Part shown: piece after piece, positions 8,857 to 61,455 of the stretch
How positions within the stretch are numbered: position 1 is the first letter of the stretch
Layout of the letters: each line of letters opens with the position of its first letter
Assembly: GCA_040752595.1 (NCBI GenBank)
Contig: JBFMGX010000006.1
Location: 1 to 64,000, forward strand
Reading direction: 5' to 3'
Length of the DNA stretch: 64,000 bases
Origin: Candidatus Zixiibacteriota bacterium
Lineage (GTDB): Bacteria; Zixibacteria; MSB-5A5; WJJR01
Program-made: the position numbers and the translations under genes
Notes under the pieces: model-generated
Database searches by the model: none
What the model was told of the DNA's origin: nothing
Seen by the model: the letters and a program-made list of their open reading frames with translations, nothing else

Positions 8857-8976
8857 CGGAGAGTGCCGGGAAGTCGCGATCGGTTGATCAAGCTGTTTAA
8901 TCCAGAAACGCCTCGGCAGGAGCCTCGCCCTCCCGAAGACGCTGGTAGTGGTTGATCGAGTCCATAGGCATCGGAT

Positions 8977-9615
8977 CTACTCTGCCGCTCGGGCGCGATA
9001 TGTCATCGTCGTCAACTCCATGGGAGGGAAGGAACCGAGCGACCGCGCCGCCGCTGCCACCACGGCAAAGGGTGAATCATAGCGGATGCGAATCGACCAC
9101 GCGCTCCAGGAACCGTCGAAGGAAATCACCCACTGGCCATCCTGCCAGCGCATCCTCCCGGTGACTTCCGGATAACGACTTTCGGACCAACGCAATGCGA
9201 AGGTCGAATCGCCGGGTTCGGCAACGACAGTTCCCCGGCCGCGTGAGACGACCACGGTATCGTCATTGTTGACCAAGACGCGGCGAATCGATACGGACCG
9301 GCCGGTGCTGTCGGGTGTCATGGTCAGTGTGTCGGCGTAGTTCACCATGAAATAGCGCCCATTGCCGACCCAACGCGCCGCACCGACCGAGCTGAAGTAA
9401 CGGATCGGGTCGAAACGGAAGAGGCCCATGGAGTCTTGGGTCTGCCCGGCAAGGGGAATCATCGCGAGGAACACGAGGCAGAGGCCGGCGAGTGTTCTTC
9501 GTAGGGTGCGTGCTCCGCACGCACCGACAGGGGGCTCAAAGCCCCCTGTCCATGACGCGTCATGGTGAGTGCGGAGCACCCACCCTATTGCTCTGTGTGT
9601 CCTGCAGAGACTCAT
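8977..9615 (-). CDS. secreted protein of unknown function with an in-frame repeat in its N-terminus
   Basis: The 212-residue frame starts with ATG at 9615, three bases after the stop of yjbQ, which supports this start. Residues about 38-58 (RRTLAGLCLVFLAM...AGQTQ) form a clear signal-peptide core. The 29 or so residues before it are encoded by a palindromic repeat (9502-9587). No start codon lies between the repeat and the hydrophobic core except the ATG inside the core. The mature part (about 150 residues) is beta-rich, with FDGSWSAWSIRIRYDSPF near the end. I do not recognise a family. Confidence 0.6.
   Translation of the reverse strand: MSLCRTHRAIGWVLRTHHDASWTGGFEPPVGACGARTLRRTLAGLCLVFLAMIPLAGQTQDSMGLFRFDPIRYFSSVGAARWVGNGRYFMVNYADTLTMTPDSTGRSVSIRRVLVNNDDTVVVSRGRGTVVAEPGDSTFALRWSESRYPEVTGRMRWQDGQWVISFDGSWSAWSIRIRYDSPFAVVAAAARSLGSFPPMELTTMTYRARAAE
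9502..9587. repeat. MITE-like palindromic repeat inside a gene
   Basis: Terminal inverted repeats TAGGGTGCGTGCTCCGCAC (9502-9520) and its near-exact complement at 9569-9587 (18 of 19 match) enclose an ACAGGGGGCT/AGCCCCCTGT palindrome and CATGACGCGTCATG. The whole element stays open in the reading frame of the secreted protein gene on the minus strand. It resembles the Rickettsia palindromic elements in behaviour, not in sequence. Confidence 0.75.
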
Positions 9616-9618
9616 TCG

Positions 9619-10035
9619 CTACTCACCGATGATCTGTACGCGCACGCTCCGCGAGCGCGGGCGGTTGTCGAATTCGAGAAAGACAATTTGTTGCCAAGTG
9701 CCCAAGACGGGCCTGCCATCGGCAACGGCGGTCGTGAACGACGTGCCGACCAGCGCGGAGCGCAGATGTGCATACCCGTTGCCGTCTCCCCAAGTGGCAT
9801 CGTGCGCATACGCCCGCTGTGAGGGCACCAGTCTTTCCAGGAGTGCCGGCAGGTCCTGCCGAAGACCGGGCTCATTCTCGATGGTCGTGACGGCGGCGGT
9901 CGATCCGATGGCGCAGACGCTGACGATCCCGTCCCGCAGACCGCTGTGGCTGATGGCCTGGCTCACGCGCTCAGTCAGATCGATGATGTCGCCGTCACCG
10001 GTGGTGCGGAAGGAAATCGTCTCCGATCGCACCAT
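9619..10035 (-). CDS. yjbQ: YjbQ/UPF0047 family protein
   Basis: The 138-residue protein starts at ATG 10035, which shares its A with the TGA of the upstream acyl-CoA synthetase gene, so translation is probably coupled. Longer upstream starts would lie inside that gene. It carries the family pattern: SETISF...GDGDIIDLTERV, a central HDATWGDGN-GYAHLRSALVG and a C-terminal LGTWQQIVFLEFDNRPR. UPF0047 members are small soluble proteins; some have thiamine-phosphate-synthase activity, but the usual role is unsettled. Confidence 0.9.
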   Translation of the reverse strand: MVRSETISFRTTGDGDIIDLTERVSQAISHSGLRDGIVSVCAIGSTAAVTTIENEPGLRQDLPALLERLVPSQRAYAHDATWGDGNGYAHLRSALVGTSFTTAVADGRPVLGTWQQIVFLEFDNRPRSRSVRVQIIGE

Positions 10036-11732
10036 CACGTACCGGCCTGAGCTTGTGTCTTGGCGGGTTCGGCAACGCCCTGAGCGGTCACGAGAAGACG
10101 TTTGATCTTGCGCGTCGAGGTCTTTTCGAGGGGTTCCCGGCGCAATTCCCATTCGACGACACGCTTGTACGGTGCCAAACGCTCACAGGCGTTGCGGACG
10201 GCCGCCGCGATCAACTCACGGAGAAGCGCCTCATCGGTGAGCGCCTCGGGCCGTGTCGTCTCAAACCACTCGCGGTCAGGAACGATGACGGCGGCGACGG
10301 CCTCGCCGATCCTGCCCGGTCGGGACCGGCCGTACACAACCGATTCCAAGATCCCGGGCTGGTCGCCCAAGACCGCCTCGAGTTCCTCCGGGTAGATGTT
10401 CTTCCCCGCGCCGGAGATGATGACATTCTTGCTGCGACCGACGATGCGCAGGCGCCCATCGCGGTCGAGAGTCCCCAAGTCGCCGGTCAACAACCAGCCA
10501 TCGCGGATGACGGTCGCCGTTTCGGCGGGCCGCCGCCAGTACCCCTTCATGATCATCGGGCCCTTGACCAGAATCTCTCCGACGCCGTCAGGACGGGGGT
10601 CGCGAATCGTCACTTGCACCATGGGCAGTGGCGGACCGACTGTGTCGTAACGATGCCGTCCCGGGATGTCAACCGCCACGGCCGGTGCCGCTTCTGACAG
10701 GCCATATCCCTGCACGAGAGGCAGCCCAACGGTGTCGAAGAATTCGGCGACGTCGGGAGGAAGTGCCGCCGCACCCGATGTCAGCAGGCGCAGGGAGCCG
10801 ATCCCGGCGCGCTGTCGTACACCACGGAACAACCACCGTCCCGCCCCACGCCATCCCGCCCTCCGGAAGGCCCGGGACAGCGCCATGCATAGAGCGAAGG
10901 TGAGGCGCTGGGACCGCGGCGCCTCGGACACGCGGTGCCTGATGCCCTTGGCGATCTTCTCAAACAGCAGGGGAACGCCGATCATCTCGGTCGCGCCGGT
11001 GGCCTTCAGGTCAGCCAGAATCTCCCCCGACTTCAAGCCGCGCGCGAAGGCCACCTGCGCTCCCTGGGACAGCGGGTAGAGAAATCCCATCGTGCACTCA
11101 AAGGCGTGGTGGATCGGCAGGATCGAAAGGAGCTTGTCGCGGGAGGTGAGGAGCCCGCGTTCGGCCACGGCGGCGATATCCGCGACGATGTTCGCATGCG
11201 ACAGCATTACGCCCTTGGTGGTGCCGCTGGTTCCCGATGTGAACAGGATCGACGCGATGGCCTCAGGATCAATGGTCGGGGCCGGGGGCAGCGCCGCTGT
11301 CGGCTCGACGAACTCGGGCCAGATCTGCGAGAGGCGCACTATCGGCAGACTCGTGCCGCGGCCGGTCAGTATCGGTGTCGCGCCGGCGGTGATCAGAAGC
11401 GAAGGATCGGCTTCCTCAAGGATGGCCCGCGCCTCGCCCGGGGTCAGAAGCGGATCGACAGGTATCGCGGTGGCACCGGACCAGAGCACGCCGAGATAGG
11501 CCACACCCCATGAGAATCGGTCTGGGACCCAGATTCCGACTCGGCGATCCGGACCCGCCCCGTAGGTCCGCAATCGTTGGGACAACTGCACCGCCGCGCC
11601 GACCAGCGCCCCGTAGGACACGGACGTAAGGGCGCCATCACGCCAGCGCCAGAGGGCCGGACGAGCCGGCCAACGCAGGGTGCTTGTGAGGATCAGTTCG
11701 GGAATCGTAGTGGGTGCTGATGCGGTTGTCAC
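10035..11732 (-). CDS. AMP-dependent acyl-CoA synthetase/ligase
   Basis: I chose the GTG at 11732 because a GGGAG ribosome-binding site lies about 8 bases before it; the frame extends 18 codons further but without such a site. The protein of about 565 residues shows the adenylate-forming enzyme motifs: ILFTSGTSGTTKGV (A3), the QGYGLSEAAP loop (A5), TGDLGTLDRDG and IVGRSKNVIISGAGKNIYPEELE (A7/A8), and a C-terminal KTSTRKIKR lysine region (A10). It activates a carboxylic acid, probably a long-chain fatty acid, to an acyl-CoA or acyl-AMP. It is co-transcribed with yjbQ. Confidence 0.85.
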   Translation of the reverse strand: MTTASAPTTIPELILTSTLRWPARPALWRWRDGALTSVSYGALVGAAVQLSQRLRTYGAGPDRRVGIWVPDRFSWGVAYLGVLWSGATAIPVDPLLTPGEARAILEEADPSLLITAGATPILTGRGTSLPIVRLSQIWPEFVEPTAALPPAPTIDPEAIASILFTSGTSGTTKGVMLSHANIVADIAAVAERGLLTSRDKLLSILPIHHAFECTMGFLYPLSQGAQVAFARGLKSGEILADLKATGATEMIGVPLLFEKIAKGIRHRVSEAPRSQRLTFALCMALSRAFRRAGWRGAGRWLFRGVRQRAGIGSLRLLTSGAAALPPDVAEFFDTVGLPLVQGYGLSEAAPAVAVDIPGRHRYDTVGPPLPMVQVTIRDPRPDGVGEILVKGPMIMKGYWRRPAETATVIRDGWLLTGDLGTLDRDGRLRIVGRSKNVIISGAGKNIYPEELEAVLGDQPGILESVVYGRSRPGRIGEAVAAVIVPDREWFETTRPEALTDEALLRELIAAAVRNACERLAPYKRVVEWELRREPLEKTSTRKIKRLLVTAQGVAEPAKTQAQAGT

Positions 11733-14564: not shown

Positions 14565-14708
14565 CCCTCACCCCTTCGACTTCTCTCGGCTTCGCTCGGG
14601 ACAAGTCGCTCAGTGCAGGCCGATCCGCCTGCGGCGCCGTGCCTGCCGGCAGGCAGGGATCGACCTCTCCCCCTCGGCTCTGCTCGGGGCAAGCCGGAGG
14701 GAGAGGTT
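14565..14708. repeat. long copy of the CCTCTCCC palindromic repeat family
   Basis: It starts CCCTCACCCC and ends GGAGGGAGAGGTTA. Inside are TCGGCTTCGCTCGGGAC, a GATCCGCCTGCGGC unit, a TGCCTGCCGGCAGGCA palindrome and GATCGACCTCTCCCCCTCGG. It is longer than the other copies, which suggests internal duplication or nested insertion. It lies in the 5' region of the exonuclease gene and reads as an open frame through it. Confidence 0.8.
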
Positions 14709-15789
14709 ATTTCTCCCTTTTTCTGTCTTGGTTCGCCTCGGCGCGTCGTTCAAGTCGCTCCATCTGTGCGCGGACGAAGGGATCCTTCTCCTTACGTTTG
14801 AGCGCGTCGACCCGTTTTCGCTCCTGCTGGCTCGGGTGGATCGCCAGTCCCTCGATGGCGAATCCGCGCTCGTACGGATCGGGGCTGCCCAGGAAGTGGA
14901 GCAGCGTCTTATGGGCGGCCGCATCGGGACATCCCCCCAACGCCACGACGGCGCAATAGCGCGCCGCGCCGCTCAACACCGAGATCGCATCGATCAACAG
15001 TCCGGATGGGGGTGGCACGAGCCGTGTCAGCGATCTCTGCGCCGAGAGACGGACGCCATAGAATGGGTCCTCCAGTGCTCTGACCAGCGCCGGTGCCGCG
15101 CTGGAATCGCCGATCGATCCGAGGGCCACGGCGGCGCTTTTGCGTACATCGCTGTCGTCGTCGGTCTGGAGTGTCACGATAAGACTGTCGACGGCGCGTT
15201 TGTCCTTCGTCTTGCCGAGCGCCGTGGCCACCTCGGAGCGGACACGATGCTCGCGATGGCCCAAGTGCGCAATGAGCGGTTCAACCGCGGCGGTATCTCC
15301 AATCAACCCCAGGGCATTGGCGGTGTTGGCCGGCATGTCTTCACCGCTCGAATCCAGGCACGGGACCAGATACGGTGTCGCTACGGGGCCGATCTTCTGG
15401 AAGATCTCGCTGAGTGCGCGTCGCTCCCGGGCATCGCTCGTGCGCAGTTTGAAGGCCAGCCAGCGTGCCGCCACAGGCCCCATTGCAGCCAGCGAATCCT
15501 TGGCCGGCTGGACTCCGGCGGCGAAGCGTATATCGCCCGCCGTCGCCCACATGAAGAGACGATCGACCCGGGCCGAGTCAGTCTGGGCGTGAGCGGTCAA
15601 GTCGAAGGCAAGGAGCACAAGAAGTCCGCACAGGCCAAGGTGAGCAGAGGCGACTCGGAGTAGTCTGCAAGAGCCCCCCTCACCCGATCCGCCTACGGCG
15701 GATCGACCTCTCCCCCTCGGCTCTGCTCGGGGCAAGCCGGAGGGAGAGGTTACGTCCGACACTCCACATGTTCCCACGTCAAGTGACAT
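14707..15789 (-). CDS. exported HEAT-repeat protein with in-frame repeat in the signal region
   Basis: ATG 15789 lies one base after the stop of the upstream gene, so this start is favoured. The first 13 codons are followed by about 25 codons from a palindromic repeat (15676-15751), then a hydrophobic signal segment (LGLCGLLVLLAFDLTAHAQ). The mature part carries six or so HEAT/PBS-lyase-type repeats of about 31 residues, such as TANALGLIGDTAAVEPLIAHL, VATALGKTKDKRAVDSLIVTL and AVALGSIGDSSAAPALVRAL, then a charged C-terminus. Such arrays bind proteins; the partner is probably the co-transcribed 661-residue protein or another periplasmic factor (inference). Confidence 0.75.
   Translation of the reverse strand: MSLDVGTCGVSDVTSPSGLPRAEPRGRGRSAVGGSGEGGSCRLLRVASAHLGLCGLLVLLAFDLTAHAQTDSARVDRLFMWATAGDIRFAAGVQPAKDSLAAMGPVAARWLAFKLRTSDARERRALSEIFQKIGPVATPYLVPCLDSSGEDMPANTANALGLIGDTAAVEPLIAHLGHREHRVRSEVATALGKTKDKRAVDSLIVTLQTDDDSDVRKSAAVALGSIGDSSAAPALVRALEDPFYGVRLSAQRSLTRLVPPPSGLLIDAISVLSGAARYCAVVALGGCPDAAAHKTLLHFLGSPDPYERGFAIEGLAIHPSQQERKRVDALKRKEKDPFVRAQMERLERRAEANQDRKREK
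15676..15751. repeat. CCTCTCCC-family repeat inside the HEAT gene
   Basis: CCCTCACCC, GATCCGCCTACGGCGGATC palindrome, GACCTCTCCCCCTCGG, CTCGGGGCAAGCC and GGAGGGAGAGGTTA are arranged as at 35432-35507. The repeat is read without a stop in the HEAT gene frame. Confidence 0.85.
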
Positions 15790-17776: not shown

Positions 17777-17868
17777 GCCCGGTCGATAACGAAGCCCGGG
17801 CGCGTCGTCAATCGCTTTTGCGACAGGCGACCGACTTGGACGCAGTCACACGGCTCACGTGAGTCGCC

Positions 17869-17940
17869 GTGCCACGGGTCTTCAGACCCGTGCCGTGTTC
17901 CTTCGCATTGGAGTTCACGGGTCTAAAGACCCGTGGCACC
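17869..17940. repeat. GTGCCACGGGTCTT palindromic repeat, uninterrupted copy
   Basis: A 72-bp element begins GTGCCACGGGTCTTCAGACC and ends GGGTCTAAAGACCCGTGGCAC. It has two ACGGGTCTnnAGACCCGT palindromes facing each other across about 20 bases. The second copy in the window lies inverted at 61086-61337 and is interrupted by another element at the TA that is intact here (17924-17925). Confidence 0.85.
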
Positions 17941-25632: not shown

Positions 25633-25701
25633 GTAGGGGCGACCGGTTGGGTCGCCCACCCCCCTCGGGGGGTAAAGGGCGAGGCAGCGCCTCGCCCCTA
25701 C
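25633..25701. repeat. palindromic repeat between the polyprenyl synthase gene and nadK
   Basis: GTAGGGGCGACCGG...GGTCGCCCACC, CCCCTCGGGGGG and GGGCGAGGCAGCGCCTCGCCCCTAC form nested palindromes. The outer arms GTAGGGGCGA and TCGCCCCTAC pair. It is distinct from the CCTCTCCC family. Confidence 0.8.
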
Positions 25702-30070: not shown

Positions 30071-30282
30071 CCGCGATCTTCGATCGCGGTGTCGTTGCGT
30101 CTTGTGCCCATTGTCCCGCTTCGCGGGACCGCGATCAGAGATCGCGGCCACACATTTCCGTGGTGCCAATGCCCAAACCCCTCACCCTAACCCTCTCCCC
30201 GGAGGGGAGAGGGGATCTGACTCCTTCTGTGCTATTCGTCGATCATTGGCATGTCATCGCGTCAGGAGCACAGGGCTCCTGA
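30071..30282. repeat. cluster of three unrelated palindromic repeat families
   Basis: Between rny and ymdB lie two CCGCGATCnnnGATCGCGG palindromes (30071-30089, 30129-30147), a short CCTCTCCC/GGAGGGGAGAGG element (30181-30214) and TCAGGAGCACAGGGCTCCTGA (30262-30282). None has a T run fitting a terminator for rny. No gene fits here. Confidence 0.8.
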
Positions 30283-30299
30283 CCTACGAATGCGTCCCA

Positions 30300-35313: not shown

Positions 35314-35360
35314 GCTTGGGACCTTTGATCAATAGTCTCCAATTGGGCTTCGTTCGTAGC

Positions 35361-35507
35361 GCAGGAGCCCTGTGTTCCTGCGGTCTGTGTCAGGTGCGCA
35401 GGGCACCTGACCTACAGTCTACTTTCGTTCGCCCTCACCCGATCTGCCTCCGGCGGATCGACCTCTCCCCCTCGACTCCGCTCGGGGCAAGCCGGAGGGA
35501 GAGGTTA
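35361..35507. repeat. palindromic repeats between pheS and pheT
   Basis: GCAGGAGCCCTGTGTTCCTGC (35361-35381) and CAGGTGCGCAGGGCACCTG (35391-35409) belong to the family also at 30262. At 35432-35507 is a standard CCTCTCCC-family copy with GATCTGCCTCCGGCGGATC. Together they interrupt a gene pair that is usually contiguous. Confidence 0.85.
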
Positions 35508-61085: not shown

Positions 61086-61337
61086 GTGCCACGGGTCTTT
61101 AGCAGGCTGCTGAAGAAGGTCACTCCATGTCATTCTGAGCCCCGCCGCTGTTGGGCGGGGCGAAGAATCTGCTGTCGGTTTCATAGGTAGAAACAGCAGA
61201 TCCCTCGTCCGCCAAAGGCGGACTCGGGATGACAATGGTCGGTCAGGTCCGCATTTCTTGGGTTTTTCAGCAACCTGTTAGACCCGTGAACTCCCAAGGG
61301 TGGAGCGGGGCGGCACGGGTCTGAAGACCCGTGGCAC
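61086..61337. repeat. GTGCCACGGGTCTT palindromic repeat interrupted by a second element
   Basis: The outer repeat is the inverse of the copy at 17869-17940. Left part 61086-61101 and right part 61279-61337 join to give the same sequence when the inner segment is removed. The joining site is a TA. Confidence 0.85.
61102..61278. mobile_element. 177-bp MITE-like element with TA target duplication
   Basis: Terminal inverted repeats are CAGGCTGCTGAAGAA (from 61103) and, on the opposite strand at the right end, CAGGTTGCTGAAAAA: 13 of 15 match. A TA flanks both ends (61100-61101 and 61279-61280). The interior holds a TGTCATTCTGAG/GAAGAATCTG motif, a GCCCCGCC/GGCGGGGC palindrome and a GTCCGCC/GGCGGAC palindrome, and no gene. 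The TA duplication points to Tc1/mariner- or IS630-type mobilisation. The ends do not match the transposase end at base 125. Confidence 0.75.
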
Positions 61338-61455
61338 ACCGCTTCACTCGGGTTATGAAACCGACTCCAGACAGTGGATGCTTCGCTCAACACGACACAC
61401 TCGTTCTCTAGCTCCCCGAGGTGTTCTTCAGCGACCTGTCAGAGTACCGCGTGAA

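Follow-up and report, generated by a model that had tools for sequence, protein, structure and literature searches.

A head-head GTAG REP dimer, presumably read through, between the start codon and the signal core of an exported protein in Candidatus Zixiibacteriota

An 86-nt palindromic element in the genome of a Candidatus Zixiibacteriota bacterium is, judged by its sequence, a head-head dimer of GTAG REPs, that is, a repeated mobile-type sequence of a known kind and not new in kind. We consider it likely that this dimer, probably spread by a RAYT, was fixed between the start codon and the signal core of an exported protein, where it is presumed to be read through. The export signal has probably been lengthened by an in-frame element. 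In the genus-level relative G002 this place is taken by another REP dimer, and the other five genomes of the family in which the gene was compared have no insert behind the likely start.

Results

Gene layout and structure of the element

The element lies in a 64,000-nt stretch of DNA (contig JBFMGX010000006.1, positions 1 to 64,000 of the forward strand), hereafter the window, at the junction between a yjbQ gene and the gene of a predicted exported protein. The features of this junction are as follows.

8977-9615, minus strand: exported-protein gene, 212 aa, from the ORF list; product predicted exported
9619-10152, minus strand: yjbQ/UPF0047 gene, directly upstream of the exported-protein gene; longest ORF
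9613-9615, minus strand: upstream ATG, three bases past the yjbQ stop, near the start position in the insert-free G001 orthologue
9577-9579, minus strand: in-frame GTG inside REP unit 2, codons read directly; the sole other start candidate upstream of the core
9457-9492, minus strand: hydrophobic signal core, residues 42-53, located by mean hydropathy

The upstream gene was assigned to UPF0047 by Pfam (2.9e-34), and codon usage places its likelier start near 10035, its listed coordinates being those of the longest ORF. No Pfam family was assigned to the exported protein at E 0.001, and no viral relatives were found. On the minus strand the yjbQ stop (TAG, 9619-9621) is followed by CGA (9616-9618) and then by ATG (9613-9615); the first base of the element comes 28 nt past the first base of this ATG, and the signal core sits directly after the element and R39-R40. 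Genes were called not with an established program but with a custom codon-usage script trained on 35 ORFs of the window. The start that it ranked best for the exported gene passed over the element, which is uninformative here because starts within repeats cannot be judged from codon usage.

The element itself is composed of the following parts.

9502-9587, minus strand: composite palindromic element, 86 nt, in frame; a head-head dimer of GTAG REPs that encloses a second palindromic module
9501-9525, plus strand: REP unit 1, with GTAG tag, 9-bp stem without mismatches and 3-nt loop
9526-9550, plus strand: inner module B, 11-bp perfect stem and 3-nt loop; follows REP A at 13 places in an 850 kb sample of the source genome
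9551-9564, no strand: perfect palindrome of 14 bp that separates module B from REP unit 2, read directly
9564-9588, minus strand: REP unit 2, with degenerate tag ATAG and one G.T pair in the stem, read directly

A preliminary description of the window had placed an 86-bp palindrome in the frame of the gene at 8977-9615, just ahead of the signal core and free of stops, with an ATG three bases beyond the end of yjbQ. The positions read from the sequence bear this out, and the ORF crosses the whole element with zero stops; the 19-bp inverted ends of that description give way to arms of 24 nt (9502-9525 and 9564-9587, 92% complementary, 38 nt apart), each of which is itself a hairpin with a 9-bp stem and a 3-nt loop. 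The GTAG tag (9501-9504) lies unpaired at one hairpin end and the second unit carries ATAG; in G002 both units carry GTAG. The 9-bp stem and 3-nt loop fall within the ranges for GTAG REPs (stem 5-13 bp, loop 2-20) in Table 1 of Di Nocera, De Gregorio and Rocco (2013, PMC3733652). The folding energy of the 86 nt as RNA is -67.7 kcal/mol (z -9.84), and none of 200 dinucleotide shuffles folded as well. Rfam returned two sub-threshold matches (E 0.22, far under the gathering scores), which were taken as chance.

The repeat family in the source genome

The element belongs to an abundant family. The source genome, of 2.94 Mb, holds 94 matches to the element region (E up to 1, both strands counted). 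Two other copies span nearly the whole element (81% over 85 nt, 79% over 86 nt). The 850 kb sample contains 29 places with REP A, 33 with module B and 13 with both, against 1, 0 and 0 in one order-1 Markov copy. Within the window, GTAG heads a hairpin at 6 of 171 sites, against 0 to 0.9% for 13 other tags, the highest of which is GTCG (11/1252); ten Markov copies gave 0-4 GTAG-headed hairpins. GTAG hairpins with other stems are common in the genome, and head-head dimers were found in the window, in the source genome and in G002, their share of the total being uncounted.

The same 850 kb yielded 154 GTAG hairpins, 106 of them intergenic, 21 at a gene edge and 27 in a called gene or in a longest ORF only. 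The last group divides into 14 inside the best-scoring gene call and 13 that lie only inside the longest ORF. An N-terminal REP is often non-coding, since several of these 13 have an ordinary ATG downstream, as ahead of the SecA-, RibH- and RadA-like genes (named by eye); PMC3733652 carries the same warning for N-terminal GTAG REPs. Five genic hairpins (C4:17312, 157263, 449312 and 509339, and window 48625) were set aside by eye as chance and not REPs.

Several other repeats were observed. Further GTAG REPs, all intergenic and representing two other stem types, lie at window positions 25633-25701, 30261-30287 and 35356-35415; two of these are head-head dimers. REP dimers of the element's type lie just ahead of secA (gene named by eye) in the source genome (C4:58499-58568) and in G002 (L140:834-897). 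A family with ACCTCTCCC...GGGAGAGGT ends occurs at 957-1032, 14634-14709, 15677-15752 and 35432-35507 of the window; a repeat like it opens an exported protein at L007 (by eye), the N-terminal part of which matches many places in the source genome. Another palindromic repeat, CACGGGTCT..AGACCCGTG, is present at 17859-17939 and 61311-61347. A GGCAGGAGCCTCGCCCTCC-type repeat lies at about 8908-8941, just past the 3' end of the exported-protein gene, and a motif of that type is also found in frame in the LptE N-termini of G005 and G006 (L222, L223; by eye).

Orthologues with and without the insert

Seven genomes of the family were compared, namely the source genome (G000) and G001-G006, with G001 and G002 belonging to the same genus. 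The exported gene and its signal core were found in all seven, with 41 residues ahead of the core in the source genome, 32 in G002 and 3-23 in the other five. An insert behind the likely start is absent from five of the six orthologues (G001, G003, G004, G005 and G006), and no inverted repeat was found near the gene start in G001, G004, G005 or G006. G003 has an untagged palindrome with 25-nt arms, 83-136 nt upstream of the likely ATG (L037:2109-2161), and is counted as insert-free behind the start because the ATG comes after the palindrome. Searches with the element at E 0.01 gave no matches in G001 and G004 and 31 in G002.

In G001 the start is a GTG a few bases past the yjbQ stop, the only start after the last in-frame stop, and the signal core follows directly; a layout without the insert therefore exists. 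Since this GTG beside the yjbQ stop leads straight into the core, a start at that position looks older, with the element placed between start and core. In G002 a 71-nt REP dimer, 15 nt shorter than the element of the source genome, occupies the same place in frame. The G002 ATG overlaps the yjbQ stop; this start is assigned by position only, because another in-frame ATG lies upstream within yjbQ. The preliminary description had proposed that orthologues be compared for presence or absence of the insert, and had regarded the upstream start as original and the element as inserted. The comparison gave both states, and the G001 layout and the five insert-free orthologues favour that order of events; a single simple insertion would not account for everything, G002 having a different dimer.

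The junction with yjbQ is not conserved across the family, since no yjbQ motifs were found upstream in the loci of G005 and G006; G001 has them immediately ahead of the gene and G004 at a greater distance. Between the source genome and G002, 106 of 202 aligned residues of the exported protein are identical (element codons included). Identity at fourfold sites is 27/62 in yjbQ and 32/61 in the exported gene, the latter including element codons, where 0.33-0.34 is expected. By this comparison the exported protein is under constraint, given such residue identity despite near-saturated fourfold sites.

Candidate transposases

Matches to Y1_Tnp are present in all seven genomes, and six exceed the cut-off in the source genome. 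One RAYT-like Y1_Tnp gene there (L043/L142, C11) has head-head dimers of a sister REP on both sides, while Y1_Tnp-like genes adjoin REPs of the element's type in G003 and in G002, where the match scores 22.2 bits, short of the Pfam cut-off of 23. No Y1_Tnp gene of the source genome was found to have REPs with the element's exact stem next to it. The pattern fits RAYT-REP systems, and the RAYT link of the element is circumstantial.

Discussion

Reading through the element

Between the element and the signal core there is no ATG, GTG or TTG, either in the gene of the source genome or in that of G002. If the exported protein is made, the element must for this reason be read in frame. The start candidates upstream of the core are ATG 9615 and the GTG within the element, and either would include at least 26 element codons; synthesis by the usual route would thus imply that 26 or more of them are translated. 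A -67.7 kcal/mol hairpin beginning 28 nt past the start might hinder translation, and we count it against this reading.

The element could instead act mainly as an RNA hairpin at the junction, stabilising the end of yjbQ or damping the downstream gene, its open frame being a by-product. Its very strong fold would suit such a role, as would the location of REPs mostly between genes or at their ends (106 intergenic and 21 edge hairpins of 154). Sharing of REPs by orthologous gene sides, examined in 70 reciprocal-best orthologue pairs of the source genome and G002 (64 and 60 with both neighbours known), points the same way at 3' sides, where presence is shared at 7/12 against 10/52 (p 0.01); at 5' sides it is not significant (2/7 against 8/53, p 0.33), and intergenic spacing is an uncontrolled confounder of both figures. 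Against it, the element lies behind the start position seen in G001, and the frame used is open in both carriers, though only 2 of 6 frames are open in the element of the source genome and 3 of 6 in that of G002. As the main explanation this appears unlikely, and an RNA-hairpin role is compatible with a translated insert, the two not being exclusive.

It is quite improbable that the element lies effectively upstream of the coding part, with translation starting at its GTG or the gene of the source genome no longer expressed. Both carriers do have a GTG at this position, since it comes with the repeat; a G-rich stretch directly adjoins this GTG, a poor Shine-Dalgarno spacing (read directly), and a start there would still translate 26 element codons. 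The conservation of the protein noted above (106/202 identical to G002 with fourfold sites near saturation) speaks against this reading. An artefact of binning or assembly we regard as scarcely credible: the G002 record is a MAG and G000, with its 50 contigs, may be one too, but the site is occupied in two separate assemblies, by in-frame elements that differ from each other.

The course of events that we favour is one of insertion and read-through. A RAYT-type (Y1/HUH) transposase would probably have spread the head-head GTAG REP dimer, which would have come to fixation behind the start codon, ahead of the hydrophobic core of the signal peptide. The ribosome would start at ATG 9615 or at the element's GTG and read 26 to 29 element codons, the signal peptide would work with an n-region of roughly 41 residues, and the insertion would be tolerated because n-regions vary freely in length. 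Either the site would have received one element before the two species diverged, with later renewal, or it would have been filled twice.

One insertion or two

The arms of the source element and of the G002 dimer match at 23/24 and 20/24 positions, more than a single old insertion passed on by simple descent would explain with fourfold sites near saturation. The alternatives are two independent insertions at one site and a single ancestral insertion that exchange with other REP copies has renewed; we give the former somewhat less than an even chance. In its favour, each element is typical of its own genome, an A+B composite in the source genome and a simple dimer in G002 (compare L069, L075 and L076); module B is almost absent from the G002 sample (1 place), and where REPs are shared at orthologous gene sides elsewhere, they mostly belong to different families in the two species. 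Against it stands the right-hand flank at the tag, GAAGA on the coding strand, which is identical in both carriers, while a flank preference across 81 hairpins is clear only at -1 and -2 (pyrimidine-rich). A shared site renewed from other copies and two hits at a favoured site are both possible.

Other REPs read in frame

The source genome contains further, independent in-frame REPs. The linker of MutL (L103:674-2473; C4:380674-382473) holds two in-frame GTAG REPs that G001, G002, G004 and G005 lack. In HemC-HemD (L160:14682-16535; C4:434682-436535) an in-frame GTAG REP lies between the domains, and the linker is shorter in G001, G002, G003, G005 and G006; single stops were also reported in this comparison. 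The idea of a REP-made fusion was dropped, as the relatives read through too with a shorter linker. In LptE (L168:14570-15277; C5:74570-75277) a GTAG REP encodes the n-region of the lipoprotein signal directly after ATG ATT, the likely start; it is absent from G001 and G004, another palindromic repeat is there in G005 and G006 (by eye), and no LptE match was found in G002. In another exported protein of the source genome, two REPs separate the signal peptide from the conserved part; judged by eye, G005 likewise has a REP in frame and G006 a decayed REP. A weak Y1_Tnp match (19.7 bits, under the cut-off) has a REP inside. With the exception of this last case, these in-frame REPs lie in parts that are commonly variable in length. 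Further N-terminal candidates of the source genome were set aside as ambiguous: L057 (C4:107149), where GTG codons after the element could serve as starts, a lipoprotein (L011, C14) with TTG/GTG start candidates, and several more in which an ATG follows downstream.

Relation to known repeats

GTAG REPs were defined in 2013 and attributed to RAYT transposases, with many copies inside ORFs (PMC3733652). That paper already describes intragenic and N-terminal examples, some lying fully in ORFs and encoding 20-30 residues, suggests linkers as REP-tolerant places, and reports for recB different REPs at about the same site in two Xanthomonas species. The element shares with the GTAG REPs characterised there the tag, the 9-bp stem and short loop, head-head dimers, high copy number and a mostly intergenic location with some N-terminal cases. 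It differs in that insert-free and occupied orthologues are both at hand, no downstream start is present and the site is a signal n-region; its dimer has an extra inner module, and the host belongs to the Candidatus Zixiibacteriota lineage.

The preliminary description had likened the element to Rickettsia palindromic elements (RPEs), which are about 150 bp long, encode a conserved peptide and lie in genes in nearly half of the cases (PMC10969869); RPE-4/6 have been placed among CGTC repeats (PMC3733652). The likeness is apt, a palindromic repeat being read in frame in unrelated genes, but among known kinds the GTAG REP comes closest, and it has already been described within genes and at N-termini (PMC3733652). 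Taxon and length set the element apart from RPEs as these are described in that literature: it is 86 nt long and in another phylum, and most copies lie outside genes. In-frame insertion into genes, an RPE trait, is not the usual fate here, with 106 of 154 hairpins intergenic and 21 at gene edges. REPINs and BIMEs with RAYTs (TnpA-REP) offer a further parallel in their REP dimers and in HUH transposase genes in the same genomes, some of them adjoining; they differ in that no transposase is assigned to the element's stem in the source genome. A full-text search, with subscription journals mostly outside it, found no paper on Zixibacteria with REPs, on palindromic elements with signal peptides, or on RPEs with signal peptides.

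Implications

It is easy to take an N-terminal REP for an annotation error, since the start codon often lies further downstream. In the present gene one orthologue is empty, another is occupied and a downstream start is lacking, which together make one case testable. Signal n-regions and interdomain linkers might even be standing landing sites for REPs in this lineage, with the exported gene refilled by different dimers in two species and a like pattern in LptE and the other exported protein; REPs would then be a recurrent source of new N-terminal export-signal sequence, perhaps kept for hairpins or extra basic residues that tune expression or export. We put this forward as speculation that is rather unlikely to hold. 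More immediately, the finding suggests that there are parts of proteins, signal n-regions and linkers, which accept inserts.
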